From: Paracoccaceae bacterium
Lineage (GTDB): Bacteria; Pseudomonadota; Alphaproteobacteria; Rhodobacterales; Rhodobacteraceae
NCBI GenBank assembly: GCA_020446815.1
Contig: JAGRDY010000018.1
Location: 1 to 64,000, forward strand
Length of the DNA: 64,000 nucleotides
Direction: 5' to 3'
Shown here: positions 31,841-55,601 of the stretch, piece after piece
Numbering within the stretch: the first letter of the stretch is position 1
Layout: the number at the start of each line of letters is the position of its first letter
Notes under the pieces: model-generated
What the model saw: the letters and a program-made list of their open reading frames with translations, nothing else
Told to the model about the DNA's origin: nothing
Database searches by the model: none
Made by a program: the position numbers and the translations under genes

Positions 31841-32848
31841 ATGAAATACGATGAACACAAGACCGAGATCGGGTTTCTGATATTCCCGGGTTTTCCGATG
31901 GCGTGCCTGACCTCGGCGATCGAGCCGCTGCGCGCCGCCAATGAAATTGCGGGAAAACCTGCCTTTGGCTGGAAAGTGATCGGTGAAAGCCGCGAGCGTG
32001 TGGTTTCGAGCGCTCAGGTAGGGTTCGAGCCTGATCTGGCCCTGTCAGAGACAGATCACCTGGCGCAGCTATTCTTTCTGAGCAGCCCGGCGGGACGTTT
32101 CCGCAATGCCCAGAAAAGCAATGCAACGGTACGGTTGCTGGCCCGTCACGGGGTAAATATCGGGGCGATCAGCGGGGGCATTTTCCCGCTGGCGCGGGGT
32201 GGCTTGCTCAGCGGGTACAAATGCTCGGTTCATTGGTGCTATGAGGCCGCTTTCAAGACTGCATTTCCCGATGTCATCGCCTGTGAAAATGTCATCACGA
32301 TCGACCGGCAGCGCATAACGGTCGCGGGGGCGACGGCGGCATTCGATCTGATGTTGCGCTTCATCGAGGAACAGCTCGGCACGGAAATCATGACCGAAGT
32401 GGCCTGTTGGTTTCAGCACCCCTTCATGCGCGGCGATGATGTCGCCCAGAAAATCCCGACGATCCGCGGTAGCCGTACGGACGACATGCTGCCCGACGCC
32501 GTGGCGCGGGCGATCCGGCTATTTGCGGAACATGTGGAAGAACCCATTCAGATCGCCCAGGTGGCAGATGCCGTGGCTCTTTCGACGCGCCAGCTTGACC
32601 GAGCCTTTCAACGCGCGACCGGGCAGAGCCCGCTGAAATACTACCGGATGCTGCGCCTCAAGAAGGCGCGCCAGATGGCGCTGTATTCCAGTGATTCCGT
32701 GACCGATATCGCCTTGTCGGTGGGTTACGCCAGCTCTACCCCGCTGGTGCGGCACTATGTTCAGGCATTCGGTCTGACCCCGCAAGAGGACCGGCGCGCC
32801 ATCAACGGCATTCGGGTCAAGGCAAATGCACCATTACCGTCGGTCTGA
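31841..32848 (+). CDS. GlxA-family transcriptional regulator (DJ-1/PfpI plus AraC HTH)
   Basis: This 335-residue regulator has an N-terminal DJ-1/PfpI-like ligand domain (about 8-200, IGFLIFPGFPMACLTSAIEP) and a C-terminal AraC-type double helix-turn-helix (about 220-320: IAQVADAVALSTRQLDRAF, then DIALSVGYASSTPLVRHY). GbdR of Pseudomonas, which senses glycine betaine and dimethylglycine and activates sarcosine oxidase genes, has this architecture. The gene lies 11 bp from the convergent soxG end, so a role as soxBDAG activator is a reasonable inference. Two direct repeats upstream of soxB are candidate targets. Confidence 0.8.
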   Translation: MKYDEHKTEIGFLIFPGFPMACLTSAIEPLRAANEIAGKPAFGWKVIGESRERVVSSAQVGFEPDLALSETDHLAQLFFLSSPAGRFRNAQKSNATVRLLARHGVNIGAISGGIFPLARGGLLSGYKCSVHWCYEAAFKTAFPDVIACENVITIDRQRITVAGATAAFDLMLRFIEEQLGTEIMTEVACWFQHPFMRGDDVAQKIPTIRGSRTDDMLPDAVARAIRLFAEHVEEPIQIAQVADAVALSTRQLDRAFQRATGQSPLKYYRMLRLKKARQMALYSSDSVTDIALSVGYASSTPLVRHYVQAFGLTPQEDRRAINGIRVKANAPLPSV

Positions 32849-32859
32849 GCAGGGCGCGT

Positions 32860-33432
32860 TCATAGCGCGCTTTGCGCCGCCGTGACCAGTGCGTGGTGCA
32901 AAGAAGCCGCCCCGGATCGTGGACAAAGCACACTGAAGCGAATGCCCGCTTCACGGCAGATGACGATGCATCCAAGATGTTCGATGGCGGTGCGCGACGC
33001 GCTGTTTGACGGCATGGCGGCAACATTCAGGGCGCAAAGTCGTTCGAACACCGCGCCGGCGGCAGGCCCTTCCGCCGCAAAGCACGCCCAACCGTCGGTC
33101 TGTTCCGTGACCGAAGCACTGCCCCCAAAGGCGGCTTTCAGTTCCGCAGCGATCTCTTCGTGGGTTTCGAACGGGGCCTCGATCATCCATTGGTCGGGGC
33201 CGATCCAGATGGCCGTAAAAGGGGTCTTGCCTGCGCTGGCACCCGGCCCTGGCATCTCGAAGCCGAAGTGTTTTCTGGCTGCCTTGGTGAAATTGTTCGC
33301 CTGCCCGGCACGACAGGCAAGTGACGCAAGCGCCAGGTCCGGGTTTTCGCTGATGGTGAAGACGTCGAAAGTTTCCACTTTCGCGCTATCGCCGCCCAGC
33401 GGGTTGAGCGCTTTCAATCGATGTTCAGGCAC
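32860..33432 (-). CDS. soxG: Sarcosine oxidase gamma subunit
   Basis: The gamma subunit (190 residues) has the GcvT/folate-binding-like fold and helps assemble the heterotetrameric sarcosine oxidase. Recognisable parts are FTAIWIGPDQWMIEAPFE near residue 75 and the Ser/Ala-rich stretch leading to HLGCIVICREAGIRFSVLCPRSGAASLHHAL (a run near 150-180). I chose the GTG at 33432: AAGGAG lies 8 nt upstream and the start overlaps the soxA stop by 8 bases, giving translational coupling. It is the last gene of soxBDAG. Confidence 0.88.
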   Translation of the reverse strand: MPEHRLKALNPLGGDSAKVETFDVFTISENPDLALASLACRAGQANNFTKAARKHFGFEMPGPGASAGKTPFTAIWIGPDQWMIEAPFETHEEIAAELKAAFGGSASVTEQTDGWACFAAEGPAAGAVFERLCALNVAAMPSNSASRTAIEHLGCIVICREAGIRFSVLCPRSGAASLHHALVTAAQSAL

Positions 33433-36379
33433 GCAGGCGTTCTCCTTCCGGGTCAACGAAATGGGCGCTGACAACTTCGACATCTGTCTCGATGCCCTTT
33501 AGCGGGTTCACCGCCTTGATGATTTCGCCCTTTCTGGCACCGCCATTCCTGAGCAAGCCGAGGCCGATCGTGTGACCAAGATTCGGTGAATAGGCGACCG
33601 AGGTCATGTACCCCTGGTCATTGCTGGCGTTGGCAACAGCATCCTTGTTGATGAAATGCGATCCGGCGGAAAAGCTCTGGGCGGGGTCCACCGGACGGAA
33701 CCCCATCAGGACGAGCGTATCTTGCCGGTTCATGCCGTCGCGTTGGCAAAGCGTGGAGCCAATGCTGTCTTTCTTCTTCGAGACCATCGCACCCATGCCA
33801 AGATTGAGCGCTGAAGTCGTGCCATTCAGTTCGTTCCCCGCGGCATGGCCTTTTTCGATGCGCATGACACCCAGTGCTTCGGTGCCATAGACGACGGCAT
33901 CGAATTCGCGGCCAGCCTCGACCATGGCACGGATCAATCCGTCGCCATAGCGCGTCGGCACCGCGATTTCATAGGCCAGCTCGCCCGAAAAGGATATCCG
34001 GAACAAACGCGCGCGAAGCCCGCCGCAGACGGTGATTTCACCGCAGCCCATATAGGGGAATGCCTCGTTGGAAATGTCGTGATCCTTGTCGACGATCTTT
34101 TCCAGAAGCTTTCGCGCATTGGGGCCTGCGACGGAAAACTGCGCCCAGGCCTCGGTCGTGGAGATGATCTGGACATCCAGATCGGGCCACAGGCACTGGC
34201 GGCAAAATTCCATATGCCGAAAGACGCCGACCGCATTGGCGGTGGTGGTCGTGGTGATGAAGTGATCCTCGGCCAGGCGCGCCGTGGTCCCGTCATCCAT
34301 CACCATTCCGTCTTCGCGCAGCATCAAGCCATAGCGAACCTTGCCAACGGCGAGCTTGCCAAAGGGGTTGGCATAGATCCGGTTGAGAAATTCGGCGGCA
34401 TCGGTTCCCTGTACGTCGATCTTGCCCAGGGTCGTCACATCGCAGATGCCGACGGATTTGCGCGTGGCCAGAACCTCGCGGTCGACCGACTGGCGCCAAT
34501 GGGTTTCACCCGGTTTCGGGAACCATTGTGCCCTTAGCCACATGCCGACCTCGACAAAGACCGCGCCTTGTTCGGTGGCCCACTTGTGGCTGGGGGTCAG
34601 GCGCGTCGGCCGAAAACCCTTGCCCGTAGAGCGCCCCGCAAAGGCCGCGATCGGAACCGGTGTATATGGCGGGCGATAGATTGTGGTGCCGGTTTCGGGG
34701 ATGGATTTGCCGGTCAGTTCGGCCATGATCGCCAATCCGCCCATGTTGGCGGTCTTGCCCTGATCGGTGGCCATCCCGAGGGTCGTATAGCGTTTGAGAT
34801 GTTCGACAGAACGGTAACCCTCGAGATGCGCCAGCTTCACATCCTTCACGGTCACGTCGTTTTGCTGATCGAGCCAGGCGCGGCCCTTGCCGTGCTGGAC
34901 ATACCAGAAGGCCTTGACACTGGCGGCGGCATCTTCGGTGCGGGGCAGGTCAACCGGTGCCGCCTTGACTCCGATATCGGCAAGGGCCGCGACCGCACCC
35001 GATGTGCCGGCGGCCAGCGCCGCTGCGGTTGACAGTTGGCCGTTGGCGGCACCGGCCACGGTCATTCCGGGCGGGCAGGTATCGGGAACGAAGGCCGACA
35101 GCGTTTCATCCCATCTGGGGCGGCCGCGCTGATGGCATGTCAGATGGACATTGGGGTTCCAGCCCCCGGAAACGCCAAGGGCATCACAGGCAATGGTCCT
35201 TTTATTCCCGTCAGCCAGTTGAACGGTTACCGAAGCCAGCCCGAGCCGGCCCGAGGTATCAATCACTTGCGCGCCGCGCAGGGTTTCGGTGCCGGAAATG
35301 TCCGGTGTGTCCGCGCGGCAGTCGATCACAGCGGCGACATTCACGCCTTTTGATATGAGATCGGTGGCGGTCCGCAATCCGTTGTCGTTATTGGTAAAGA
35401 CCGCAACCGTCTTGCCCGGCAATGCCGCCCAGCGGTTGACATAGCTGCGCAAGCTACCGGCCAGCATGATACCCGGTCGGTCGTTGTTTTCGAATGCGAT
35501 GGGCCGCTCGAGCGCACCTGCACAAAGCAGGCTCCGTTTTGTGTAGATCCGCCAGAGTATCTGGCGCGGTTTGCCGGGAAGCGGCAAGGCCAGATGGTCG
35601 GACACCCTTTCAAGCGCACTGTAGATGCCGTGATCAAAGGCCCCGATGACGGTGGTGCGCGTCATCAGACGGACGTTGGGCATCTGTGCCAGTTCGGCCA
35701 CGGCCAGGGCAGCCCAATCCGTGCCCGATCCATCGCCAAAGGCGTAGGTTTCCGAATTCAGCCGCCCGCCAGCAACGAAATCCTCGTCGGCAAGTATCAC
35801 CTTTGCCCCGGCACGGCCCGCCGTCAGCGCCGCCGCCAGACCCGACGGTCCCGCACCGATAACCAGAAGGTCGGTATGCAGGAACCCTTTGTCATATTCG
35901 TCCGGATCCGCCTGCGCGGTCAGGCTGCCCAAGCCAGCGGCGCGGCGGATTATCGGCTCGTAGAGCTTTTCCCAAAAAGCCTTTGGCCACATGAAAGTCT
36001 TGTAATAAAAGCCCGCGGCAAAGAAACGCGAGAGCCGGTCATTGACGGCCATGGCGTCGAAGGCGAGCGAGGGCCAGCGGTTCTGGCTCCGGGCTTGCAG
36101 CCCCTCGAAAAGTTCGGCCGTGGTGGCGCGGGTATTGGGTTCCTGGCGTGCGCCCGTGCGCAGTTCGACCAGCGCGTTGGGTTCTTCCGAGCCGGCGGTC
36201 AAGGGGCCGCGCGGACGGTGATACTTGAACCCCCGCCCCATCAGACGCACACCATTTGCAAGCAGGGCAGACGCAAGCGTGTCGCCCGGATGACCCTGAT
36301 AGCTTTTGCCATCAAAGCTGAAATTCAGCACCTGCGAACGGTCGATCCGACCGCCGCCGATCCGGTTGATCTGACTCAT
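33425..36379 (-). CDS. soxA: Sarcosine oxidase alpha subunit
   Basis: The alpha subunit (984 residues) binds NAD and works with beta to demethylate sarcosine to glycine, passing the one-carbon unit to tetrahydrofolate. The N-terminal 2Fe-2S-ferredoxin-like segment (GHPGDTLASALLANGVRLMG near 35) is followed by a dinucleotide-binding fold, IGAGPSGLAAALTAGRAGA near 170. The C-terminal third, from about 600, is the GcvT-like aminomethyltransferase domain with DVTTLGKIDVQGTDAAEFL. Length is normal. The start overlaps the soxD stop (ATGA), and soxG follows with overlap. Confidence 0.96.
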   Translation of the reverse strand: MSQINRIGGGRIDRSQVLNFSFDGKSYQGHPGDTLASALLANGVRLMGRGFKYHRPRGPLTAGSEEPNALVELRTGARQEPNTRATTAELFEGLQARSQNRWPSLAFDAMAVNDRLSRFFAAGFYYKTFMWPKAFWEKLYEPIIRRAAGLGSLTAQADPDEYDKGFLHTDLLVIGAGPSGLAAALTAGRAGAKVILADEDFVAGGRLNSETYAFGDGSGTDWAALAVAELAQMPNVRLMTRTTVIGAFDHGIYSALERVSDHLALPLPGKPRQILWRIYTKRSLLCAGALERPIAFENNDRPGIMLAGSLRSYVNRWAALPGKTVAVFTNNDNGLRTATDLISKGVNVAAVIDCRADTPDISGTETLRGAQVIDTSGRLGLASVTVQLADGNKRTIACDALGVSGGWNPNVHLTCHQRGRPRWDETLSAFVPDTCPPGMTVAGAANGQLSTAAALAAGTSGAVAALADIGVKAAPVDLPRTEDAAASVKAFWYVQHGKGRAWLDQQNDVTVKDVKLAHLEGYRSVEHLKRYTTLGMATDQGKTANMGGLAIMAELTGKSIPETGTTIYRPPYTPVPIAAFAGRSTGKGFRPTRLTPSHKWATEQGAVFVEVGMWLRAQWFPKPGETHWRQSVDREVLATRKSVGICDVTTLGKIDVQGTDAAEFLNRIYANPFGKLAVGKVRYGLMLREDGMVMDDGTTARLAEDHFITTTTTANAVGVFRHMEFCRQCLWPDLDVQIISTTEAWAQFSVAGPNARKLLEKIVDKDHDISNEAFPYMGCGEITVCGGLRARLFRISFSGELAYEIAVPTRYGDGLIRAMVEAGREFDAVVYGTEALGVMRIEKGHAAGNELNGTTSALNLGMGAMVSKKKDSIGSTLCQRDGMNRQDTLVLMGFRPVDPAQSFSAGSHFINKDAVANASNDQGYMTSVAYSPNLGHTIGLGLLRNGGARKGEIIKAVNPLKGIETDVEVVSAHFVDPEGERLRA

Positions 36380-36663
36380 TTGCTGCGCCCCTTCTGGCGG
36401 GCCACATCACGGGCCAGTTCGACAGAGATAATTTCATGACTGGAAATATTGCGCGTCACGACCAGCCAGCTGCGGTCGCCCTGTTCGTGATACCAGAGTT
36501 CCTTGTGCAACCCCGCAGGATTGTCGCGCAGATACAGGTATTCGTAAAAGGCGTCGGCGGCATCCTCGGCCTGCCAATCCGGGCGTTCGATCAGACCGGC
36601 ATCCCCGAGATAGGTGAACTCCTGGGAATCGCGGGGGCCAAGCAGGGGGTGATTGATGATCAT
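36376..36663 (-). CDS. soxD: Sarcosine oxidase delta subunit, cysteine-free variant
   Basis: The delta subunit (95 residues) is a small structural part of the heterotetramer. In characterised enzymes it binds zinc through Cys6, Cys9, His59 and Cys63. Here the N-terminus reads MIINHPLLGPRDSQEF where CPYCG is expected, and WYHEQGDR keeps the His but has Asp in place of the last Cys. The protein has no cysteine at all, so that zinc site cannot form. Context is firm: it lies between soxB and soxA and overlaps soxA by 4 bases. Residues YLYLRDNPAGLHKELWYH match the family closely. Confidence 0.9.
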   Translation of the reverse strand: MIINHPLLGPRDSQEFTYLGDAGLIERPDWQAEDAADAFYEYLYLRDNPAGLHKELWYHEQGDRSWLVVTRNISSHEIISVELARDVARQKGRSK

Positions 36664-36677
36664 GTTTCGCGAACCTG

Positions 36678-37928
36678 TCAGTGTAAATTGGGCTGCGCGC
36701 CCATACCTTTTTCGTCGATCATCAGCCCCTTGCGGAACCGGTCGAAACGATAGGCGGTAGCGGTGGGGTGGGGGGCGTCGGTTGCCAGCAGATGGGCAAA
36801 GCACCAGCCCGAGGCAGGCGTGGCCTTGAACCCGCCATAACACCAGCCGCCATTGAAATAGAGGCCGTCGATTCCGGTGCGGTCGATGATCGGCGAGCCG
36901 TCCATCGACATGTCCATGATGCCGCCCCACATGCGCAAAAGACGGGCACGGCCGATCATCGGCATCAGGCTCATGCCGCCCTCGCAGACATCTTCGACAA
37001 CCGGCAGATTGCCGCGTTGCGCATAGGAGTTATATCCGTCGATGTCGCCGCCAAAGACCAGCCCGCCCTTGTCGGACTGGCTGACATAGAAATGCCCGGC
37101 GCCATAGGTGATGACGCCAGGAAGGATCGGCTTGAGCCCTTCGCTGACAAAGGCCTGCAAGACATGGCTTTCGATCGGCAGGCGCATTCCGGCAAAGGAC
37201 ATGACCTTGCCCGACGATCCGGCAACCGCGCAACCGACCTTCTTGGCGCCGATGAACCCGCGGCTGGTTTCCACGCCCAGACATTTGCCGTTCTCGATGC
37301 GAAATCCGGTGACTTCGCAGTTTTGCAGGATATCGACACCGCGGCTGTCGGCGCCGCGGGCATAGCCCCAGGCGACGGCATCATGGCGCACCGTGCCGCC
37401 CCGCGGTTGCAGCAGCCCGCCCTTGATCGGGAAGCGGGCATTGTCGAAATTGAGAAACGGCGCCATCTTGCGCACGCCTTCGGCATCGAGCAGTTCGGCA
37501 TCCACACCGTTCAACCGCATGGCGTTGCCGCGCCGGGTCATCGCGTCACGCTGTGCATCTGAATGGCACAGGTTCAGAACGCCGCGCTGGCTGACCATGG
37601 CGTTGAAGTTGAAATCCTGCTCCAGCCCCTCCCAGAGTTTCATCGAGAATTCGTAGAAAGGCTCATTGCCATCGAGCAGGTAATTCGAGCGGATGATCGT
37701 GGTGTTGCGCCCGACATTGCCGCTGCCGATCCAGCCTTTTTCGATGACGGCGATCCGTTTTTGATTGAATTCCTTGGCCAGATAATAGGCCGTGGCCAAA
37801 CCATGCCCGCCGCCGCCGATGACCACGATGTCATATTGCGACTGAGGTTCCGGGTCGCGCCACGCTGGCGTCCATCCCTTGTGGCCTGTCAAAGCCTCCT
37901 TGATCACCCTGAAGCCGGAATAGCGCAT
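36678..37928 (-). CDS. soxB: Sarcosine oxidase beta subunit
   Basis: The beta subunit (416 residues) holds FAD and the covalent FMN and oxidises the amine. The FAD-binding fold is VVIGGGGHGLATAYYLA near residues 36-52, followed by NVGRNTTIIRSNYL. The segment VRHDAVAWGYARGA near 175 contains a His that likely corresponds to the FMN attachment site known from characterised enzymes. The C-terminal FNGGWCYGGFKATPASGW is typical. I chose the ATG at 37928 (MRYSGFRVIKEAL), preceded by GGGGGT; the ATG at 37955 adds nine unconserved residues. First gene of soxBDAG. Confidence 0.95.
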   Translation of the reverse strand: MRYSGFRVIKEALTGHKGWTPAWRDPEPQSQYDIVVIGGGGHGLATAYYLAKEFNQKRIAVIEKGWIGSGNVGRNTTIIRSNYLLDGNEPFYEFSMKLWEGLEQDFNFNAMVSQRGVLNLCHSDAQRDAMTRRGNAMRLNGVDAELLDAEGVRKMAPFLNFDNARFPIKGGLLQPRGGTVRHDAVAWGYARGADSRGVDILQNCEVTGFRIENGKCLGVETSRGFIGAKKVGCAVAGSSGKVMSFAGMRLPIESHVLQAFVSEGLKPILPGVITYGAGHFYVSQSDKGGLVFGGDIDGYNSYAQRGNLPVVEDVCEGGMSLMPMIGRARLLRMWGGIMDMSMDGSPIIDRTGIDGLYFNGGWCYGGFKATPASGWCFAHLLATDAPHPTATAYRFDRFRKGLMIDEKGMGAQPNLH

Positions 37929-37989
37929 TGCACCCCCAATCTGTCCGTCCGCCATTAATGCCCGATTCTATCCACGAAAACCCCGTCAA

Positions 37990-42882: not shown

Positions 42883-42895
42883 GCGTATCGCCCGT

Positions 42896-44215: not shown

Positions 44216-45088
44216 TCACATTGCACGCGCCATGTTCAAGACAACCTCGCGAAAGGCATTGGCCGCAGGGCTGGGGTGGCGTTGTCGGCTTGTGAGAAGT
44301 TTCAATTGACGCTCCACCACAGGCGCCTGCGGCGACAAGAAGGCCAGATCCGTCGCTTCACCAAGCAAGACGCGCCGGGGCAGGATGGTCGCGCCAAATC
44401 CATTTCGGACGAACGACAAGAGCGTCGTGGTGTTTCGCGCGGAAAGAAGGCTTGTCGCCACCAGGTGCTGAACCGTCGGATGATCGACCAGAGTGCATAG
44501 CGGATTGGCGACAAATGGTTCAAGATCAAGCATTTCCCAGTTCACGGCTTGCCCGGATGTCATGATCGGGCTGTCTTGTCGGCAGACAATGCCGAGCCGG
44601 TCGCTTGCCAGGGCCTCGGCCTCGATATCTGGCCCTGACTGGCCCGAGGCGATTCCGATGTCGGCCATGTCGAATTGCAGGTGGTTGATGACAGCGGCAC
44701 TGTCGACATCGCTCACTTCAAGTCGAATTTCGGGGCGCATGTGCCGGAAACTGCGGATCGCGTCGGGAAGAATGCTGGTTGCCGCCGAGGGGACGCTGGC
44801 GATGCGAACGGTTCCTGCGGTCGAATGGGCATGGCGTCTGATCGCCTCGGCGGCGCGGTCGAAAACATCTGTCGCGCGCGTCGCCTCTTCAAGAACGCGC
44901 AGGCCAAGCGGCGTCAGACGGTTCTTGCGATCGGTTTCAAAGAGCGGCGCGCCCAGATGCTCTTCAAACTGTTTGAGCATCATCGATATGGCCGATGGCG
45001 TGCGTCCGAGCACCGCGGCGGCACCTGCCAAAGTGCCTTCGAAGGCGACGGCGCGAAAACATCGCATCATTTCAAGTTTCAACATCAT
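44216..45088 (-). CDS. LysR-family transcriptional regulator
   Basis: This 290-residue regulator has an N-terminal winged helix (residues 1-62: LEMMRCFRAVAFEGTLAGAA, then GRTPSAISMMLKQFEEHLG) and a periplasmic-binding-like effector domain from about 90 (GTVRIASVPSAATSILPDAI). It is divergent from the aldehyde dehydrogenase gene, with 93 bp between the starts. LysR regulators typically control the divergent neighbour in response to a pathway intermediate, so it most likely governs the 45.2-52.8 kb operon. Two palindromes lie in the shared region. The start may be ATG 45088 or ATG 45085. Confidence 0.9.
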   Translation of the reverse strand: MMLKLEMMRCFRAVAFEGTLAGAAAVLGRTPSAISMMLKQFEEHLGAPLFETDRKNRLTPLGLRVLEEATRATDVFDRAAEAIRRHAHSTAGTVRIASVPSAATSILPDAIRSFRHMRPEIRLEVSDVDSAAVINHLQFDMADIGIASGQSGPDIEAEALASDRLGIVCRQDSPIMTSGQAVNWEMLDLEPFVANPLCTLVDHPTVQHLVATSLLSARNTTTLLSFVRNGFGATILPRRVLLGEATDLAFLSPQAPVVERQLKLLTSRQRHPSPAANAFREVVLNMARAM

Positions 45089-45089
45089 C

Positions 45090-45104
45090 TTCAGAATATC
45101 TGAA
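45090..45104. promoter_or_regulatory. Palindrome at the LysR start
   Basis: TTCAGA (45090-45095), ATA, TCTGAA (45099-45104): a perfect palindrome with 6-bp arms. It directly abuts the regulator's own start codon, which fits autorepression. Confidence 0.5.
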
Positions 45105-45118
45105 ATTTTATTAAGAAA

Positions 45119-45134
45119 TTCAAGATTGCTTGAA
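45119..45134. promoter_or_regulatory. Palindrome in the LysR/aldehyde dehydrogenase gap
   Basis: TTCAAG (45119-45124), four bases, CTTGAA (45129-45134): perfect 6-bp arms. TTCAAG recurs at 45162-45167 and at 45072. A LysR dimer site is likely; this copy would place the protein about 30 bp from the palindrome at 45090. Confidence 0.5.
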
Positions 45135-45181
45135 GTGCACTATACCCCTAGAAAAGAGGAATTCAAGCATGAGGGAATGCC

Positions 45182-46633
45182 ATGGCACAACAGACAGGGC
45201 TCCATGTCGCAGGGAGGTGGCAGACGGGTGAAGGCGAGATCGAGAACCGCAATCCGTCTGATGTGTCGGATCTGATAGGGTGTTATGCCCAGGCCAGCGC
45301 CGCGCAACTGGATGAGGCACTTGACGCCGCGCGCAGGGCCCAGCCGGTCTGGTGGGCCGCTGGGATTCAGAAACGCCACGATGTGTTGATGGCCATCGGA
45401 ACGGAGTTGATGGCGCGCGCGGACGAGATTGGCCGCATGATCGCCCGCGAAGAGGGCAAGCCTGCCGCCGAAGGCAAGGGCGAGGCCTATCGCGCCGGAC
45501 AGTTTTTTACCTACTTTGCCGCCGAGGCGCTGCGCAATCAGGGCGATTTGGCTCAAAGTGTCCGGCCCGGGGTCGAAATCGACGTCCGCCGTGAACCGGT
45601 CGGCGTTGTCGCCATCATCTCGCCGTGGAACTTTCCGGTGGCGACTCCCGCCTGGAAGATCGCGCCCGCGCTCGCCTTTGGCAACGCGGTGGTCTGGAAA
45701 CCGGCGAATCTGACGCCTGCATCGGCGGTGATGCTGACGGAAGTGATTGCAAGGCAGGACATTCCCCCCGGCCTTTTCAACCTTGTCACCGGATCGGGCC
45801 GTTCGGTTGGCCAGCGTCTGGTGGAAAGCCGTACCGTGGACGCGATCAGTTTCACCGGCTCTGTACCCGTCGGGCGCGGTATCGCAAGTGCGTGTTGCGT
45901 GAACATGACCAAGTTGCAGATGGAAATGGGGTCGAAGAACCCGATGATCATCATGGACGATGCCGATCTCGAACTGGCGGTTGCCCATGCGTCGGGCGCG
46001 GCCTTTGGCGGAACAGGGCAGAAATGCACCGCCGCCAGCCGTTTGATCGTGCATGAAAAGGTCCATGATGCCTTTGTCGACGGGCTGGTCGCGGCGGCCA
46101 AGGGGTGGAAAGTCGGGCATGCGCTGGAAGAAGGCACACAGATCGGGCCGGTGGTCAGCGAAGGCCAGTTGCGACAGAACCTCGATTATATCGGCATCGG
46201 CAAGGCCGAGGGGGCAGAGTTGCTTTGCGGCGGCGACCGCCTGGAGCGCGCGACCGAGGGCCATTACATGGCCCCATCGGTTTTCGCCGCTACCAGGAAC
46301 GATATGCGCATCAACCGCGAAGAGATGTTCGCCCCGGTGACCTGCGTGATGAAGGCGGGCAGCTATGACGAGGCGCTGGCCATCGCCAACGACAGCGAAT
46401 TCGGCCTGACGGCCGGCATCATGACCCGCAGCCTGGCGCGTGCAAGCCATTTTCGCGCCAACATGCGCGCGGGCTGCGTGATGGTCAATCTGCCAACTGC
46501 GGGAACCGACTATCATGTGCCCTTTGGCGGGCGTGGTTCGTCATCATTCGGGCCGCGTGAACAGGGATCATACGCGGCTGAATTCTACACGACCGTGAAA
46601 ACCGCCTATGTGGCGGCGGGCAACCCGGAATGA
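45182..46633 (+). CDS. Aldehyde dehydrogenase (NAD(P)-dependent)
   Basis: This 483-residue enzyme oxidises an aldehyde to its acid. The NAD-binding region is IISPWNFPVATPAWKIAPAL near 145-164, followed by WKPANLTP and FTGSVPVGRGI. The general-base Glu is in MEMGSKNP near 247 and the nucleophilic Cys in GGTGQKCTAASRL near 281. C-terminal PFGGRGSSSFGPREQG is also typical. It resembles ketoglutarate-semialdehyde dehydrogenases, but the substrate is not assigned. GAGGG lies 7 nt before the ATG. It is the first gene of the LysR-linked operon and its stop overlaps the next gene (ATGA). Confidence 0.9.
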   Translation: MAQQTGLHVAGRWQTGEGEIENRNPSDVSDLIGCYAQASAAQLDEALDAARRAQPVWWAAGIQKRHDVLMAIGTELMARADEIGRMIAREEGKPAAEGKGEAYRAGQFFTYFAAEALRNQGDLAQSVRPGVEIDVRREPVGVVAIISPWNFPVATPAWKIAPALAFGNAVVWKPANLTPASAVMLTEVIARQDIPPGLFNLVTGSGRSVGQRLVESRTVDAISFTGSVPVGRGIASACCVNMTKLQMEMGSKNPMIIMDDADLELAVAHASGAAFGGTGQKCTAASRLIVHEKVHDAFVDGLVAAAKGWKVGHALEEGTQIGPVVSEGQLRQNLDYIGIGKAEGAELLCGGDRLERATEGHYMAPSVFAATRNDMRINREEMFAPVTCVMKAGSYDEALAIANDSEFGLTAGIMTRSLARASHFRANMRAGCVMVNLPTAGTDYHVPFGGRGSSSFGPREQGSYAAEFYTTVKTAYVAAGNPE

Positions 46634-47607
46634 ACCCTCTGATTGACGGTCTGCAATACGCCAACTGGTCGGAAAGGGTTTTCCGCCAGATGCGTGAAGG
46701 TGGCCTCGATGCCGTGCATGTCACTATCACCTATCATGAGAATTTTCGTGAGACGGTATTGCAGATCGAGAAATGGAACCGTTTTTTCGAACGCTTCCCC
46801 GACCTGATCTTTCAGGGTTTTTCCGCCGATGATGTCGCGAAGGCCCGCGATACCGGGCGCACGGCGATCTTCTTCGGTTCGCAGAACCCTTCGATGATCG
46901 AGGATGATATCGGTCTGGTCGAGGTATTGCACCGCCTTGGCCTGCGCTTCATGCAACTGACCTACAACAATCAGTCCCTGCTTGCGACCGGTTGTTACGA
47001 GGCGCGGGATTCGGGTCTCACGCGGATGGGCCGGGAAGTCGTGGCCGAGATGAACCGCGTCGGCATGGTCGTCGACATGAGCCATTCAGGCGAAAGGTCG
47101 ACACTGGAAGCGATCGAGCACTCCTCCCGCCCGATCGCCATTACCCATGCCAATCCGCACGGCTGGCACCCGGCGCTGCGCAATAAATCCGAAACGGTGA
47201 TGAAGGCGCTTGCCGAAAGCGGCGGCATGTTGGGGTTTTCGGTTTATCCGCACCATCTCAAGGGCGGCAGCGCCTGCACGATTGACGAGTTTTGCACGAT
47301 GATCGCGCGGACGGCGGAGTTGATCGGCATAAGGCATATCGGCATCGGCACCGATCTTTGCCAGGATCAACCCGACAGCGTTGTCGAATGGATGCGTGTC
47401 GGGCGTTGGACCAGGAAGATCGATTATGGCGAGGGAAGCGCGGCTGCACCGGGGTTTCCACCGATGCCAGAGTGGTTCAACGACAATCGCGATTTTGCCA
47501 AAATCGCCGAAGGATTGAAATCCGTGGGCATGTCCGGGGCCGAGATTGCGGCCGTGATGGGGGGCAACTGGTCAGACTTTTTTGCCTCGTCGTTTGGCCG
47601 GGCATAA
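46630..47607 (+). CDS. M19 (renal) dipeptidase-like protein with incomplete metal site
   Basis: This 325-residue amidohydrolase-fold protein belongs with the membrane dipeptidases. Active family members bind two metals through His and Asp of DGHND, a bridging Glu in G-x-E-G, and two later His residues. Here the first motif reads IDGLQYANW, the Glu position reads GSQNP, and only the His in VVDMSHSGE and IAITHANP remain. So three of five ligands are missing, although the rest of the fold (FMQLTYNNQSLLATGCYE, RHIGIGTDLCQD, MGGNWSDFF) is well kept. It may be a non-peptidase enzyme or a partner protein. Translation is coupled to the aldehyde dehydrogenase by ATGA. Confidence 0.75.
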   Translation: MNPLIDGLQYANWSERVFRQMREGGLDAVHVTITYHENFRETVLQIEKWNRFFERFPDLIFQGFSADDVAKARDTGRTAIFFGSQNPSMIEDDIGLVEVLHRLGLRFMQLTYNNQSLLATGCYEARDSGLTRMGREVVAEMNRVGMVVDMSHSGERSTLEAIEHSSRPIAITHANPHGWHPALRNKSETVMKALAESGGMLGFSVYPHHLKGGSACTIDEFCTMIARTAELIGIRHIGIGTDLCQDQPDSVVEWMRVGRWTRKIDYGEGSAAAPGFPPMPEWFNDNRDFAKIAEGLKSVGMSGAEIAAVMGGNWSDFFASSFGRA

Positions 47608-47658
47608 AGCGACGGCCGGACAGGGTGTTGCCATGGCATTGGATCGGGAGAGGAGCGA

Positions 47659-49335
47659 ATGATGCAGGAACCGGCAGGACATCACGCCGAAAGCGCAGCG
47701 TTCCGGCGTCAACCGGCGACCGTCATGCGTCTGGCCCGCATGGGCAGCGCCCATCCGACGCGGTTGTCCTTCTTGCGGGTGCTCTTGCGCCGCATGAAGA
47801 ATGATAACTGGGCCTTCGACCGCCCTGTCTGGCAGATGGATGCCAAGGGTGTCGGCCGCGCCGTCTACCGCGCCATCGGGCCTGAACGAACCTATTCACT
47901 GGTTGCTTTTGCCCATGATCTTCCTGCCGAGATGCGGTCTGATAGGGTCATCGCAACCGCCTGGGATGCGACATTCACGCTTTTCGATGGCACACCGAGT
48001 GAGGCCGATCTGGAACGGCTGGCGGCCAATGTACCCTTGCAGGAGGCCGGCCGGATCGGCCCGAGCGAGCTTTCGCTCAGCCGGGCCAACCGCTCGGTGC
48101 GGTTGTTCGATCATGTGGTCGAAAGGCTTTCCCAGGGGCGTCAGCCGGACGCCGATGCTCTCGACGCCGTCGGATACCTGATGCGCACCACGGCGGTCTA
48201 TGGATCGGGAAAGTTCGGTGCCGCCGACAGAACCGTCTTGCAGAACCGGCCCGAGGCGCATGGGCCGTTCCAGATGGAAATGCTTTCGGTGTGGCTGATC
48301 CGGGCGTTCACGGTCGATCTGGCAGAACATCTGGCCGCGGCGCGCGGCGGTGAGATGGCTGTCGCAATGGCCCCCGATTTGCGCCGCAGGCTCGGGGTGG
48401 GCAACTCCACGGGCCTCGGCATGGCGCCGTTTCTGGTGCGCCATCCGGTCTTGCTGAACAATTGGGTGCAGGCCCGCGAAGAAGCATTGGCGCGGGTTCG
48501 CGCACAGAAATCAGCGACTTCCGATGCCATTGCAGGGTTTCGCGCGGCACTCAAGGATGCCGCCCGGACCCTGGCAACTTGGCGCAGCCCGCATCCGATC
48601 CAGGCCGGTAAGCTCGACGATCTCGGAAGGGATTTGCAGATGATCAGGGCTTATCAGGACGAACGGCTGGAAAAGGGCCCTCATCCCTGGGACACGCTCT
48701 GGCGTTGGGGGGAGCGTTCGCTTTCGCTCGAGGGGCAGGAAATGCTGTTATCACTCATGCTGGAGCCGCACGGCAATCTTGTTGACAGTCTGGCCGAATG
48801 CATGGATGCCGATGAAGATGCGGCTTTCCGGATTGATGGCGCGATGCCGGTGGACCGGGCCGAGAGCCTGTTGAACGAGTTCTATGACTGGGCGGTTTCC
48901 ACCGATTTCAGCACGGCGCAAAGCACGGCGCGCTTTTGGTATGTTTCCGAGGAAAAGCTGGAACCGCGCTTGGGCGAACGGCATGACGAGCCAGGGGCGG
49001 ATCTGGAATTGCCACTGTGTATCGGGCGGCTGGCCGCGCAGATGCGCAAGGACGTTTCGGCCTGGCAGGGTGAAAACACGCTCGCGGCGTTTCTGCTGGC
49101 GCACCCCGAGCACCGGTTCATGGCGCGGCGGGTGCAGGTGACGGCGCGGTATCCCTTTGCCGAAGTGCGCGACAATCTGATCGCGTCGGACATGCTGCCG
49201 ATCGATCTGCTGCGTTGCAAGCTTGCGTTTTTCGGAGCCAGCCATTTCGATCCGCGTTCCGACCGCTGGGTGCGTATCAGCCTGTTTCAGAACGCACCCT
49301 ATCCGCAGGATCTTGCTGCAGGAGAGCCGGTATGA
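47659..49335 (+). CDS. Conserved protein of unknown function, 558 residues
   Basis: I do not recognise a characterised family. The protein is soluble-looking, with no signal peptide or membrane helix. It is rich in Arg, Ala and acidic residues. Distinctive parts are SAHPTRLSFLRVLLRRMK near 50-63, ATAWDATFTLFDG near 98, LMRTTAVYGSGKFGAADR near 174, and GVGNSTGLGMAPFLVRHPVLL near 255, which could be a ligand-binding loop. The region EEKLEPRLGERHDEP near 435 is also notable. I recall similar unannotated proteins in related marine bacteria. AGAGGAG precedes the ATG, and the next gene overlaps by ATGA, so the two likely work together. Confidence 0.75.
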   Translation: MMQEPAGHHAESAAFRRQPATVMRLARMGSAHPTRLSFLRVLLRRMKNDNWAFDRPVWQMDAKGVGRAVYRAIGPERTYSLVAFAHDLPAEMRSDRVIATAWDATFTLFDGTPSEADLERLAANVPLQEAGRIGPSELSLSRANRSVRLFDHVVERLSQGRQPDADALDAVGYLMRTTAVYGSGKFGAADRTVLQNRPEAHGPFQMEMLSVWLIRAFTVDLAEHLAAARGGEMAVAMAPDLRRRLGVGNSTGLGMAPFLVRHPVLLNNWVQAREEALARVRAQKSATSDAIAGFRAALKDAARTLATWRSPHPIQAGKLDDLGRDLQMIRAYQDERLEKGPHPWDTLWRWGERSLSLEGQEMLLSLMLEPHGNLVDSLAECMDADEDAAFRIDGAMPVDRAESLLNEFYDWAVSTDFSTAQSTARFWYVSEEKLEPRLGERHDEPGADLELPLCIGRLAAQMRKDVSAWQGENTLAAFLLAHPEHRFMARRVQVTARYPFAEVRDNLIASDMLPIDLLRCKLAFFGASHFDPRSDRWVRISLFQNAPYPQDLAAGEPV

Positions 49336-50036
49336 CCGCACATTGCGATAGGGATGGGCGCGATGATCCAGACGGCACGTTGCGTATCAGGTTGTCCCTG
49401 CCGGAAATCGACGCCCTCTGCCTCAAGGCGGCGCGGGGTGCTGGCTACAGCTGGGGAGTGGCCGAAGAGGCAAGCTTCGCCGCGCGCTGGCTGGCGGCTA
49501 GAGGTCTGCCTGGCCCGGCGATGCTCCTGGCACATCTGCAACGGTTTGATGGCAAGGGCTGGGACGAGATCGTGCCGGTTGTCGGCGATGTCTGGTCCGC
49601 GCGCAAGGGTGGCGTCTTGTGCGCGCTGGCGGTGGGAAGTGCATTGTCCGACCGGGCAGACCTGCCCGGCAACCGGAGCACTGATGCGCTGCGAATCGAC
49701 GGTCTGGCCAGCCCCATGCTGATCTTGCCCTTCGTCCAACAGAATGCGCGGGCGCAACATGCGAATTTGAGCGTTTGCTGGGGCCGGTACGAAGCTGTGT
49801 TGAGTGAAAACGGGTTCACCCTGGCCGCTGAAGAAAGCCTTGTTGACCGGGACGAGCCCGCCGTTGTCGTGATCCGCAGGGTTGATCGGCCGGCCAGACC
49901 CACTGTGGCTGGCGCCGATTGCCTGCTGGAAAACGCCACCATGCGCGGGCTTTCGGCATTCGCGCACCGCACCTATGTGCCGGCAACCGCCCGATCGAGA
50001 GCCGGGGCAGGGGCCGCGTCCAGTGACAACGACTAA
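49332..50036 (+). CDS. DUF3726-like protein
   Basis: This 234-residue protein resembles the DUF3726 family as I remember it: RLSLPEIDALCLKAARGAGYS near residues 19-39, WGVAEEASFAARWLAARGLPGPA near 40-62, and an Asn/Ala-rich C-terminal end with HRTYVPATARSRAGAG. There is no known function, signal peptide or membrane helix. The ATG overlaps the stop of the 558-residue gene (ATGA). A long stem-loop follows immediately after its stop, before pxpB. Similar small proteins might form a complex or regulate the unknown partner, but this is only inference. Confidence 0.65.
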   Translation: MTAHCDRDGRDDPDGTLRIRLSLPEIDALCLKAARGAGYSWGVAEEASFAARWLAARGLPGPAMLLAHLQRFDGKGWDEIVPVVGDVWSARKGGVLCALAVGSALSDRADLPGNRSTDALRIDGLASPMLILPFVQQNARAQHANLSVCWGRYEAVLSENGFTLAAEESLVDRDEPAVVVIRRVDRPARPTVAGADCLLENATMRGLSAFAHRTYVPATARSRAGAGAASSDND

Positions 50037-50038
50037 GA

Positions 50039-50134
50039 CGTTTCGGGAAGTACCTGACCCATCAGGTATCGCCAAAAGCCCGAGAGGGCGGAAGGCGTGG
50101 CAGGGTTTTGGCGATGCCTGATTTTCCCGAAACG
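50039..50134. repeat. Long stem-loop repeat with outer and inner arms
   Basis: Inner arms ATCAGGTATCGCCAAAA (50061-50077) and TTTTGGCGATGCCTGAT (50106-50122) pair over 17 bp with one G-T. Outer arms CGTTTCGGGAA (50039-50049) and TTCCCGAAACG (50124-50134) pair perfectly over 11 bp. The element starts two bases after the DUF3726-like stop. A diverged copy lies at 2751-2820. It has no T-run, so it is not a standard terminator. Confidence 0.8.
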
Positions 50135-50234
50135 CCCTAAAGGCGCGCGCGGGGCAAGTTATCTCTTGCCGAACCGATCCGGCTGGGGTCATTTGACCGA
50201 AAGGCGGCCATATCTGCCGCCGCAAGGAGCGCTT

Positions 50235-51005
50235 TTGAGCGGATCGGTACATCAACTTTCGACGCGAACGCGCCGGGGATTTCCGCGTATTTCGACGATG
50301 GGCCTGTCCGGTGTGCTGGTGACTTTCGCCGACGAGTTGAGCGAAACGGCGAACCGTGCGGCGCTGGCCTTTCGTGACCGGGTCGAGGCTGACCGTTGGG
50401 AGGGCATCGAAGAAACCGCCGTTTCGCTGAGTTCCGCGTTCTTGCGTTTCGATCCGCTCTGCGTCGCCCAAAAGGAAATCACTGTTCGCCTGTCACGGTT
50501 GCTGGACAGCGAAGATTGGTATGCGGCCGCGTTGCCATCCGGGCGTCGCCGGTGGCGCATTCCGACGGTCTTTGGCGGGCCGCAAGCACCCCAGTTTGAC
50601 GAGGTGGCCGAACTGGCAGGGTTGTCATCCGATAAGGCGGTTGCCGAACTGACCGCACGTCCGGTCAGGGTGATGACCATCGGATTTGCACCGGGTCTGC
50701 CCTATATGGGGATACTGCCCGCGCACTGGGATATTCCCCGCCAGACCGCATTGACGCCGCTGGTTCCGGCGTCGGCGGTGGTCCTGGCTGTCCGCCAGCT
50801 GATCATATTTTCCACCCCCACCCCCACCGGATGGCGGCACATCGGTCAGACCTGTTTTCGCGGCTTTCGTCCCGAAACGGAAACCCCCTTCGTTTTGCGC
50901 AGCGGGGATGAAGTCTCGCTCGTTTCGGTCAGCGCCGAAAAGCTAAACCGTCTCAAGGCCGACCCGAAAACCAATGGCGGCGCGACCTGCGAGCCGATCC
51001 CATGA
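50235..51005 (+). CDS. pxpB: 5-oxoprolinase subunit B (KipI family)
   Basis: PxpB (256 residues) works with PxpA and PxpC to hydrolyse 5-oxoproline to glutamate with ATP. The KipI/AHS1 domain opens with GLSGVLVTFADELSETANRAAL. The core PTVFGGPQAPQFDEVAELAG and TIGFAPGLPYMGILP near 160 are typical. I chose TTG 50235: AAGGAG (50224-50229) lies 5 nt upstream, and the earlier in-frame ATG at 50097 sits inside the stem-loop repeat. The stop overlaps pxpC (ATGA). In this operon the actual substrate may be a lactam other than 5-oxoproline. Confidence 0.85.
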   Translation: MSGSVHQLSTRTRRGFPRISTMGLSGVLVTFADELSETANRAALAFRDRVEADRWEGIEETAVSLSSAFLRFDPLCVAQKEITVRLSRLLDSEDWYAAALPSGRRRWRIPTVFGGPQAPQFDEVAELAGLSSDKAVAELTARPVRVMTIGFAPGLPYMGILPAHWDIPRQTALTPLVPASAVVLAVRQLIIFSTPTPTGWRHIGQTCFRGFRPETETPFVLRSGDEVSLVSVSAEKLNRLKADPKTNGGATCEPIP

Positions 51006-52027
51006 GCCCCGCGCTGATCATCCACAGTGCAGGCCCCGGTGTGACGGTGCAAGACCTGGGGCGCGAAGGCTATCTCGCCCAGGGGTTATCGCGCGGCGGC
51101 GCCGCCGATCGGCTGGCCGTTGCGGAAGGTGCGGCGCTGCTCGGGCAGGATGCGTCGCTTGCGGTGCTCGAAATGGCGGGGTTTGGCGGCGTATTCGAAC
51201 CCGATGCGCCAATGCGCGTCGCGCTGACCGGCGCGCCGATGCGCGCGACGGTTGACGGTGAAACACTGGTCTGGAATGCCAGCCACACCGTCATGCCCGG
51301 TCAGCATCTGTCAATCAGTACGGCGTTGAAGGGTGTCTATGGTTATCTGCATGTCGGCGGCGGAATCGATACGCCGATGGCGCTGGGCAGCCGGTCGGCG
51401 CATCTGACGGCGGGTATCGGGGCGGCGGTTGCTGCGGGTGACCGTCTGCCTGTCGGGAAAGATCGCCAGGATGCGGGCCGCACGGGAATGGTTCTGTCGG
51501 GCGCCGACCGATTCCGCGGCGGCGTCGTGCGCGTCGTGCCCAGCGCGCAGACCCATCTGTTCCCGGATGCCCAGCGCGCCCGCTTTGAGGCGACCGGTTT
51601 TACCAGGGATGCGCGCGGTAATCGTCAAGGCGTCAGGCTTGCCCATGGGGCGGAGCCTTTTGCCGCCGAGGGACAGCTAAGCATTCTGTCGGAAGTCATC
51701 GTGCCGGGCGACATACAGATGACCGGCGACGGCACGCCCTATGTCCTGTTGCCTGAATGCCAGACCATGGGGGGCTATCCGCGCATTGGCACCGTGGTGC
51801 CCGAAGATCTTCCCATCGTGGCGCAGGCGGCGCCGGGAACGATACTGGGGTTCCGTTTCGTGACGCTGGAGTCGGCGCTGCAATCCCATCGCCAAAGCCA
51901 CGCTCAGGCCGCCAGCGACATGAAAAAGCGGCTCGGCCCGCTTGTGCGCGATCCGCGAAAGATCCAGGATCTGCTGTCGTTTCAGCTGATAAGCGGTGTC
52001 ATTTCGGGCATGGAACCGGATGAGTGA
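51002..52027 (+). CDS. pxpC: 5-oxoprolinase subunit C (biotin-dependent carboxyltransferase-like, KipA family)
   Basis: PxpC (341 residues) is the AHS2-domain partner of PxpB, historically called KipA or the urea-amidolyase-like carboxyltransferase domain. The N-terminus has IIHSAGPGVTVQDLGREGYLAQGLSRGGAADRLA near residues 5-38 as a continuous family block. The C-terminal part has QTMGGYPRIGTVVPEDLP near 256 and GFRFVTLESAL near 292. The ATG overlaps the pxpB stop. It sits third in the pxpBCA order common in bacteria. Confidence 0.88.
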   Translation: MSPALIIHSAGPGVTVQDLGREGYLAQGLSRGGAADRLAVAEGAALLGQDASLAVLEMAGFGGVFEPDAPMRVALTGAPMRATVDGETLVWNASHTVMPGQHLSISTALKGVYGYLHVGGGIDTPMALGSRSAHLTAGIGAAVAAGDRLPVGKDRQDAGRTGMVLSGADRFRGGVVRVVPSAQTHLFPDAQRARFEATGFTRDARGNRQGVRLAHGAEPFAAEGQLSILSEVIVPGDIQMTGDGTPYVLLPECQTMGGYPRIGTVVPEDLPIVAQAAPGTILGFRFVTLESALQSHRQSHAQAASDMKKRLGPLVRDPRKIQDLLSFQLISGVISGMEPDE

Positions 52028-52041
52028 AGAAGGGAAACAGG

Positions 52042-52797
52042 ATGCTGAAAGTAGATTTGAACGCAGACATGGGCGAATCTTACGGCCGATGGACATTGGG
52101 CGACGACGCGGCGCTTCTGGATATCGTGACTTCGGCGAACATTGCCTGTGGATTTCATGCGGGTGACCCGGATGTGATGGCTAACACGATGCGGATGGCG
52201 TTCAACAAGAACGTCGGCATCGGTGCGCATCCTGGGTTTCCCGATTTGCAGGGCTTTGGCCGCAGGCCCATGGCGATGCCCGCCGACAGCCTGCAAAATG
52301 CCATCCGGTATCAACTCGGCGCGGCGCGGGCGGTGGCCGCGGCTGCGGGCGGAGAGCTGCGCCACGTCAAACTGCACGGGGCACTCGCCAATATGGCGTC
52401 GCGTGACGGTGATCTGGCGCGGATCTGCTATGAAGCGGTGCGCGATTTCGATCCGAAGCTCGTCATCATGGTGCTGGCGGCGACAGCGATGGAAGAAGTG
52501 GTCAAGGATATGGGTTCCGACTATGCCGCGGAAATATTCGCCGATCGCGCCTATGAGGACGATGCGACGCTGGTGGACCGCTCACAGGAAGGTGCCGTGA
52601 TCCATGATGCAGGGGCTGCGGCGGAACGCATGGTCAAAATGGTCAAGCAAGGCGCCATCATTTCCGAAAACGGCAGGAAAATCCCCACCCGCATCGATAC
52701 GATCTGCCTGCATGGCGATACCCCGGAGGCCGTCGGCATCGGGCAAAGTGTTCGCGCAGCATTGACCGGCGCGGGGATAGAGGTGTGCAAACTCTAA
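52042..52797 (+). CDS. pxpA: 5-oxoprolinase subunit A (LamB/YcsF family)
   Basis: PxpA (251 residues) is the LamB/YcsF-family subunit that likely carries the ring-opening site. It begins with VDLNADMGESYGRW, then shows ANIACGFHAGDPDVM near 33, GIGAHPGFPDLQGFGRR near 55, and LRHVKLHGALANM near 105. The C-terminus has the ICLHGDTPEAV motif. I chose ATG 52042 with AAGGG upstream. The stop overlaps the convergent rmlA stop by 4 bases, so there is no room for a terminator. Confidence 0.92.
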   Translation: MLKVDLNADMGESYGRWTLGDDAALLDIVTSANIACGFHAGDPDVMANTMRMAFNKNVGIGAHPGFPDLQGFGRRPMAMPADSLQNAIRYQLGAARAVAAAAGGELRHVKLHGALANMASRDGDLARICYEAVRDFDPKLVIMVLAATAMEEVVKDMGSDYAAEIFADRAYEDDATLVDRSQEGAVIHDAGAAAERMVKMVKQGAIISENGRKIPTRIDTICLHGDTPEAVGIGQSVRAALTGAGIEVCKL

Positions 52798-53699: not shown

Positions 53700-54565
53700 G
53701 TCGATGTCTCCAATTCGCGGATAACCTCAGCCAGGTAATCGCGCCAGTGGGGTGGTTCTATGCCATAGGCCTTGCCAATGCGGGTGCAGTCCAGGCGTGA
53801 ATTGAGCGGCCGACGGGCCGGTGTGGGAAATTTGGTTGTCGGGATGCGGGTGATCTTCGGTGGTTTCAAGGTGCCGGATCGGGCAAAAATGGCTTCGGCG
53901 AAATCCGCCCAGCTGACCGTGGGCGTGCCTGCCAGATGAAAGACGCCGGTTTCGCCCCGCCCTTCATGCAGTGCCGCGGCGATGATCCAAAGCGCATCGG
54001 CGATGGCGGCGGCGGGGGTCGGCCCGCCAAGCTGATCGTCAACGATCTTGAGCGCGTCGCATTGCGCGCCAAGGCGCAGCATGGTTTTGACAAAGTTGGT
54101 CCCGTGCGATGAAAAGACCCATGAAGTGCGCAGGATGGCATGTGGCCCGCCGGCACCCGCGACAAGCTCTTCTCCCTTCAGTTTGGATGCGCCATAGGCG
54201 CCAAGCGGCGAAACCGCATCGCCTTCCTTGTGTGGCAGAGTTCCGGTGCCATCAAACACATAGTCCGTTGAAATGTGCAAAAACGGCACCCCGCGCAAGA
54301 CGCTGGCGCGCGCCATGGCGCCGGGGGCGCCTGCGTTGACGATTTCTGCGGTTTCCGGGTCATTCTCTGCCCGATCAACAGCAGTGTAGGCGGCGGCGTT
54401 GATGACGACGTCCGCGTCTGCCTCGGCAACCGCCCTGGCGCAGGACTGCGGATCGGTCAAATCCGCCATATCCCTGCCCAATGCAGCCAGCCGCACATGG
54501 CCAGGCGCCCGCCGCGCAAGTTCCCTTGCAACTTGCCCGGAAGTGCCGAAAATAAGTGCTTTCAT
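53696..54565 (-). CDS. rmlD: dTDP-4-dehydrorhamnose reductase
   Basis: RmlD (289 residues) makes the final reduction to dTDP-L-rhamnose. The Rossmann motif is [11 protein letters not shown] near residues 6-16, [19 protein letters not shown] lies near 60, and the [10 protein letters not shown] motif holds the catalytic Tyr and Lys near 128. I chose ATG 54565 ([10 protein letters not shown]), which overlaps the rmlB stop. It is third in rmlCBDA. Confidence 0.95.
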
Positions 54566-55599: not shown

Positions 55600-55601
55600 G
55601 T

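Follow-up and report, generated by a model that had tools for sequence, protein, structure and literature searches.

A conserved gene unit beside pxpBCA in a Paracoccaceae bacterium and its possible role in the catabolism of an N-methylated heterocycle

Eight genes between positions 44216 and 52797 of a 64,000-nucleotide stretch from a Paracoccaceae bacterium (assembly GCA_020446815.1, contig JAGRDY010000018.1; the whole stretch is called the window here) raise the question of whether they serve a single pathway, and for which substrate. They encode a LysR-family regulator, an aldehyde dehydrogenase (ALDH), a protein of the M19 fold with a degenerate metal site (M19*), a 558-residue protein (U558), a DUF3726 protein, and PxpB-, PxpC- and PxpA-like proteins (Table 1). 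According to an earlier note on this DNA, all of them belong to a single pathway that acts on a cyclic amide or lactam and has a 5-oxoprolinase core. The comparison of loci in this study shows that the conserved unit comprises five of the eight genes, i.e., the LysR gene and the divergent ALDH, M19*, U558 and DUF3726 genes, and that pxpBCA is a neighbour of this unit which is found at the same site without it. Tentatively, the unit is proposed to serve as an operon for the catabolism of a betaine-like, N-methylated heterocycle, homarine (N-methylpicolinate) being the likeliest candidate.

Altogether 126 loci with U558 were gathered and 105 were counted, 21 being dropped for having less than 6 kb upstream or less than 5.5 kb downstream; these loci do not amount to independent samples. 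The neighbour search used tblastn (E<=1e-6); Ldh and RidA were represented by three and four references, respectively, so that it could have missed distant members of these two families. An M19 gene was within about 4.5 kb of U558 in 97 of the 105 loci; with the distance widened to 6 kb and all 126 loci counted, 114 had an M19-like protein. ALDH (at least 50% identical) was present within 6.5 kb in 51/105, and 44/105 had a LysR gene (identity 30% or more) between -8 and +5 kb. Betaine-type transporters recurred, with BCCT within 6 kb in 26/105, an OpuX-type betaine binding protein within 7 kb in 13/105, and either of them in 39/105. Among annotated records (DUF3726 being counted where annotated or found by profile), the unit stood with BCCT in Phaeobacter, Sulfitobacter and, rearranged, Pseudomonas; in Shinella, Aminobacter and Pararhizobium its neighbours were an Ldh gene and a betaine ABC transporter. 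In small genomes and a Pelagibacteraceae contig (L044, L053, L054 and L056) the M19-U558-DUF3726 triad was accompanied by betaine ABC or sox-like genes, the betaine-type ABC genes being seen in L044, which is the Pelagibacteraceae contig, and in the small genomes L053 and L056. Distant U558 relatives (29-33% identical) in S. meliloti, Neorhizobium and M. ciceri had other neighbours. Diverged U558 proteins, about 50% identical to that of the window (L045, L047, L051 and L174-L188), were mostly found with M19 and DUF3726-like genes and had no ALDH or LysR of the unit's kind nearby; the genomes G154 and G252 hold both U558 kinds.

The pxp genes behaved differently. Orthologous pxpC (at least 45% identity) was found within 7 kb of U558 in 2/105 loci, the window and Defluviimonas salinarum (L033), where pxpBCA adjoins the unit too; the pxp genes are not conserved beside U558. 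At L178 a pxpBCA set (46, 54 and 62% identical) lies about 10 kb before a diverged U558 in an M19-U558 pair, and at L138 a distant paralogous pxpCBA set (31, 29 and 41% identical) lies on the opposite strand, about 2.3-4 kb after the U558 start. A genome of the same genus as the window (G298) had no U558 match. Its corresponding locus (L189) has the gene order hlyD, pxpBCA, rfbA, and the LysR-ALDH-M19-U558-DUF3726 stretch is absent between hlyD and pxpB. Alignment of L189 with the window covers the RND/hlyD genes (39856-44023), pxpBCA (50636-52739) and stretches downstream (52812-54472, 54571-56099 and 56940-57844); L189 carries about 2.3 kb extra further downstream. The unit may have been either gained or lost at the pxp site. 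Because of the 2/105 linkage and the same-genus pxp locus without the unit, pxpBCA is not the core of the set, and therefore a lactam substrate is not implied; the lactam pathway with a pxp core was rejected on this synteny. The wide occurrence of the two unexplained proteins without pxp genes, or without each other, had been named in the earlier note as speaking against a single pathway; the former is what was found, whereas the pair itself stays together. The adjacent pxpA, pxpB and pxpC all exceed their Pfam cut-offs. In NCBIfam, PxpB (99.6 against 145.55 bits) and PxpC (164 against 500) stay below the equivalog cut-offs, and PxpA passes two subfamily models (353 against 226 and 245 against 213) and no equivalog.

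The junction before pxpB points the same way. Read from the sequence, the most likely start of PxpB is a TTG behind AAGGAG, leaving a gap of about 198 bp after DUF3726. This gap holds a nested and very stable hairpin directly 3' of DUF3726 (-54.3 kcal/mol, z -6.0), possibly acting as a terminator or processing site, or representing a mobile palindrome. A hairpin-bearing gap before pxpB speaks for two units. Scans for promoters and terminators gave no more matches than shuffles. Co-transcription of the unit and its control by LysR are presumed.

Within the unit, the earlier note had regarded the two unexplained proteins as coupled. This was borne out, as a DUF3726-like protein follows U558 in 120/126 loci after three profile-building rounds (117 in the first). 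The six remaining loci include two that end too soon after U558 (L066 and L068), one with a broken U558 (L067), one with an unusually long U558 frame and a DUF3726-profile match past the distance rule (L060), and two distant relatives (L061 and L062). In the 289 genomes of the window's class that were surveyed, a DUF3726 match was found in 32, and in all 32 it was within about 130 bp of the U558 match when coordinates were compared by eye; 14 control genomes gave no DUF3726 match. The two proteins are a single fused gene in a Mesorhizobium plasmid (L100, 7857-10301). The DUF3726 assignment also held in the profile search, with 73.5 bits against a Pfam cut-off of 22.1. A literature search returned no paper containing the word DUF3726.

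U558 was found in 40 of the 289 class genomes, in 70 of 149 genomes of the window's family, and in 29 of 398 genomes of a draw from the phylum, 9 of these 29 being outside the class. The relatives that could be identified were mostly Rhodobacterales and other Alphaproteobacteria, including the Pelagibacteraceae contig and isolates from soil and sea. With E values up to 1 allowed, neither Pfam nor NCBIfam gave a match for U558. Similarity among homologues begins at about residue 15, which supports translation from the first residue of the 558-residue frame or from close to it. An AlphaFold model built with 17 sequences had a predicted TM-score (pTM) of 0.84 and a mean predicted local distance difference test score of 79, with low confidence at conserved loops such as 182-189 and 251-256. 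No PDB structure matched this model in Foldseek at E<=0.001, the best E being about 1, and sequence searches of the PDB with the U558 and DUF3726 profiles gave no useful match. A new fold is thus likely for U558. In 122 sequences 34 positions were conserved at 98.5% or more; many of these are polar, Arg being frequent, and Cys and His are absent. For one of the two conservation lists, 6 far sequences were left out.

The DUF3726 protein resembles, according to its model (pTM 0.82), a truncated member of the Ldh_2 family (type 2 malate/lactate dehydrogenases). In Foldseek two PDB matches reached E<=0.001, both to ureidoglycolate dehydrogenase (1xrh), which indicates an Ldh_2-like fold. The 27 best matches, Delta1-piperideine-2-carboxylate reductase (1wtj) among them, are, by their titles, presumably all Ldh_2-family enzymes, with TM-scores of at most 0.53. 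With 234 residues against about 335, the protein is shorter than a full-length Ldh_2 domain. The window protein had no Ldh_2 match in Pfam. In hhalign the DUF3726 and Ldh_2 profiles aligned over 23 columns only, at the start, with a probability of 44%, and one DUF3726-like protein showed a weak N-terminal Ldh_2 match (E 0.046) below the cut-off. BLAST found no similarity between DUF3726 and the Ldh protein of L100.

The description of the third protein as a degenerate M19 was also correct. M19* matches the Peptidase_M19 profile with 246 bits against a cut-off of 26. In 114 loci it has L8 in 113, Y10 in 111 and Q85 in all 114, the Glu/Gln slot being seen in alignments. These residues presumably occupy the His, Asp and Glu metal-ligand sites of active dipeptidases, i.e., LxY and Gln in place of HxD and Glu. 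Other residues are kept (H152 in 113/114; H173, R184 and D242 in 114/114). The closest solved structure, 2i5g (E 1.8e-70), has the same Gln and is taken here to be P. aeruginosa PA5396 from the dimethylglycine locus. For the ALDH, the best-scoring NCBIfam models were those of 2,5-dioxovalerate and alpha-ketoglutaric semialdehyde dehydrogenases, with 481 bits, below the equivalog cut-offs of 750 and 770. An aldehyde intermediate, as the earlier note proposed, is plausible.

Two other enzymes alternate beside the unit. Within 7 kb of U558, an Ldh-family oxidoreductase was present in 44/105 loci and RidA in 15/105, and both in none. Among the 51 ALDH loci, 25 had Ldh, 15 had RidA, none had both and 11, including the window, had neither (Fisher 3.4e-6, with loci treated as independent and kinship ignored). 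On the U558 tree for these 51 loci, the Ldh/RidA state changes 7 times; another U558 tree omitted 4 of the 126 loci because no U558 stretch in them exceeded 350 residues. BCCT was present in all 15 RidA loci and in 10 of the 25 Ldh loci of this set. In L033 and other loci a BCCT gene lies between M19 and U558; the window lacks it. In an Anderseniella metagenome-assembled genome, the cluster's Ldh gene is closely followed by a gene for a SAM-dependent (S-adenosylmethionine-dependent) carboxyl methyltransferase (PF03492; L046, 12353-13474).

At 31841-37955 in the window is a block of genes for a GbdR-like AraC-type regulator and a heterotetrameric N-methyl-amino-acid oxidase of the SoxBDAG family, possibly associated with the unit. 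The same AraC and Sox block directly adjoins the unit in P. inhibens pPGA1_262 (SoxB 83% and SoxA 71% identical). On the other side of the P. inhibens cluster (L107, 5393-12876) are genes for a Rieske-type oxygenase, a PDR/VanB reductase, a second ALDH and an FAD-dependent oxidoreductase. Sox-like genes were within 12 kb of U558 in at least 10/105 loci, one of which is the window; the true number may be higher, since most flanks do not extend to 12 kb. In the genome of the window three genes exceed the cut-off for the soxB family, one of them in the linked set, and none exceeds that for gmaS (best 238 of 469.6 bits). Against the solved sarcosine oxidase 2gag the linked SoxA scored 656 bits, and the other copies in the genome 704 and 575. 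With the NCBIfam sox models, Sox cannot be told apart from N-methylglutamate dehydrogenase (Mgd). Of 20 gmaS loci compared, 4 included a SoxA homologue, three of these being also AraC-linked; the window SoxA groups with the fourth (L111, 57% identical). Candidate substrates of the linked set are sarcosine, N-methylglutamate and other N-methyl amino acids.

The breakdown of an N-methyl heterocycle via a C5 imino-diacid would fit with the betaine-type transporters, with an ALDH related to C5 2-oxo-semialdehyde dehydrogenases, and with the presence of a hydrolase relative and of either an imine reductase or RidA. A template for such a route is the degradation of trigonelline (Tgn), in which the ring of an N-methylpyridinium carboxylate is opened to an N-formyl semialdehyde; unlike that pathway, no oxygenase family is found among the eight genes in Pfam or NCBIfam. 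In the proposed route, U558 and DUF3726 would open the ring, with cleavage of the C5-C6 bond in the case of homarine, to an N-methyl-N-formylamino C5 semialdehyde. The ALDH would oxidise the aldehyde, and M19* would remove the formyl group, or help in its removal, to give 2-(methylimino)glutarate. This could be reduced by the Ldh-family protein to N-methylglutamate, from which a Sox/Mgd-type oxidase would give glutamate, or could alternatively be hydrolysed by RidA to 2-oxoglutarate and methylamine. The substrate and the order and chemistry of all steps are inferred. That U558 is an enzyme of a fold new to the PDB, which carries out ring opening on an N-methylpyridinium carboxylate together with DUF3726, an Ldh_2 relative reduced to the role of partner, with the metal-poor M19 carrying out a second unusual step and lineages using either Ldh or RidA on the imine product, is a more detailed proposal and, taken whole, rather unlikely.

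Several observations weigh against the proposed role. U558 contains no recognised oxygenase, flavin or metal motif, and 54/105 loci lack a nearby ALDH that is at least 50% identical. The Mesorhizobium cluster has an Ldh gene and a branched-chain-type ABC set and no betaine-type one, and the distant relatives L104 and L106 stand with other ABC transporters. When kinship is respected, only 5 supported independent pairs are left for the Ldh/RidA alternation (sign test, median p 0.125), and the alternation may simply follow cluster type, a possible confounder because all 15 RidA loci also have BCCT. In the window genome, a search with the BCCT of L033 as query, run without a positive control, found none, and the best Ldh_2 (40% identical) and RidA (43%) are both on other contigs. 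The window SoxA is 33-34% identical to the three SoxA proteins linked to both gmaS and AraC, taken as Mgd, and falls outside their clade, although it groups with the gmaS-linked L111. Moreover, pxpC (E<=1e-60) was found in 45/70 genomes with U558 and in 28/79 without it (p 5.5e-4, kinship ignored), so that pxpC and U558 may have a loose functional link.

It is possible, if somewhat doubtful, that the same unit does the same kind of job on another N-methylated substrate, such as trigonelline, proline betaine or an N-methyl amino acid, homarine being handled elsewhere. The recurring BCCT/OpuA-type transporters and the nearby Sox, FAD-oxidoreductase and Rieske genes single out no one substrate, and the diverged M19-U558-DUF3726-like loci without a nearby ALDH suggest that the module may serve several. 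However, the C5-semialdehyde kinship of the ALDH and the imine reductase/RidA pair best fit a C5 imino-diacid product. It is improbable that U558 and DUF3726 have no catalytic role and instead assist a neighbouring oxidase or transporter as chaperones, in assembly or in sensing. Such a role would suit a U558 of no recognised fold or family, a DUF3726 shorter than its Ldh_2 relatives and the Sox-like sets near some loci, but the small number of those sets, itself a lower bound, and the 34 highly conserved and often polar U558 columns, as in an active site, speak against it. Lastly, one cyclic amide or lactam pathway of all eight genes opened by PxpABC is very improbable in view of the rare pxpC linkage, the same-genus pxpBCA and the hairpin-bearing gap, even if seven genes are closely packed on one strand, pxpC and U558 co-occur among genomes, pxpBCA is near U558 in Defluviimonas and L178, and N-methylglutamate could form an N-methyl lactam.

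All eight open frames were found where the earlier note placed them, and Pfam confirmed the families it named. Of the four ATGA overlaps it described, three are present (46630, 49332 and 51002), and the fourth, at the pxpC-pxpA junction, reads GTGA (52024) and would disappear if ATG 52042 is the start of pxpA. The M19-U558 and DUF3726-PxpB junctions have no overlap. The seven genes from ALDH to pxpA are closely packed on one strand. Between the Sox-like block and the cluster (39742-44032) are a large and small genes resembling an RND efflux pump and its adaptor.

Table 1. Positions in the window of the eight genes, the hairpin before pxpB and the Sox-like block
Feature	Position	Strand	Basis and remarks
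AraC-type regulator, GbdR-like	31841..32848	+	215 bits, below equivalog cut-off 480; possibly associated
SoxBDAG-family heterotetrameric N-methyl-amino-acid oxidase genes	32860..37955	-	Possibly associated; same block beside the cluster in P. inhibens
Sox-like G	32860-33483	-	
Sox-like A	33425-36379	-	
Sox-like D	36376 to ~36690	-	
Sox-like B	36678-37955	-	
LysR-family regulator	44216..45088	-	Pfam HTH_1 and LysR_substrate; divergent from ALDH gene, 93 bp between
ALDH	45182..46633	+	Pfam Aldedh
M19*, M19-fold protein with degenerate metal site	46630..47607	+	Pfam Peptidase_M19; ATGA overlap with ALDH gene
U558, 558 aa	47659..49335	+	No Pfam or NCBIfam family
DUF3726 protein, 234 aa	49332..50036	+	Pfam DUF3726; ATGA overlap with U558
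Hairpin in DUF3726-pxpB gap	50039..50134	+	Fold energy; no T run behind
PxpB-like, carboxyltransferase C/D domain	50235..51005	+	Pfam CT_C_D; longest frame from 50097
PxpC-like, carboxyltransferase A/B domain	51002..52027	+	Pfam CT_A_B
PxpA-like, LamB/YcsF	52024..52797	+	Pfam LamB_YcsF

Ferrer-Gonzalez and colleagues are said to have named a homarine operon homABCDER in 2026. The unit may be this published hom operon, which is no more than a lead: five genes and a regulator would fit LysR with ALDH, M19*, U558, DUF3726 and Ldh. The window differs in having no BCCT and no neighbouring Ldh or RidA, and the literature search found no gene list for the homarine operon. Mgd is reported to take part in homarine catabolism (PMC13390433, citing Ferrer-Gonzalez et al. 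2026), so that an N-methyl compound and the involvement of Mgd are shared with the role proposed for the unit. Similarly, a paper on the dimethylglycine locus of V. natriegens and P. aeruginosa lists dgcAB, a predicted dipeptidase gene and a hypothetical gene (PMC12093977). A dipeptidase-type gene thus stands beside an unexplained gene in N-methyl catabolism there, as in the unit, the likeness being one of description, whereas no DgcAB is seen in the unit.

Based on these results, the pxp genes beside the unit give no clue to its substrate, and an error that is easily made is corrected. If the unit is the hom operon, it is known already, and what is new is the structure-level description, the Ldh/RidA alternation and the pxp correction. 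The alternation offers a direct test of the intermediate. The unit joins three proteins of unexplained chemistry, i.e., U558, for which no known fold was found, a truncated dehydrogenase relative and a hydrolase relative without the usual metal site, and since U558 is widespread, the unit probably handles a common nutrient.

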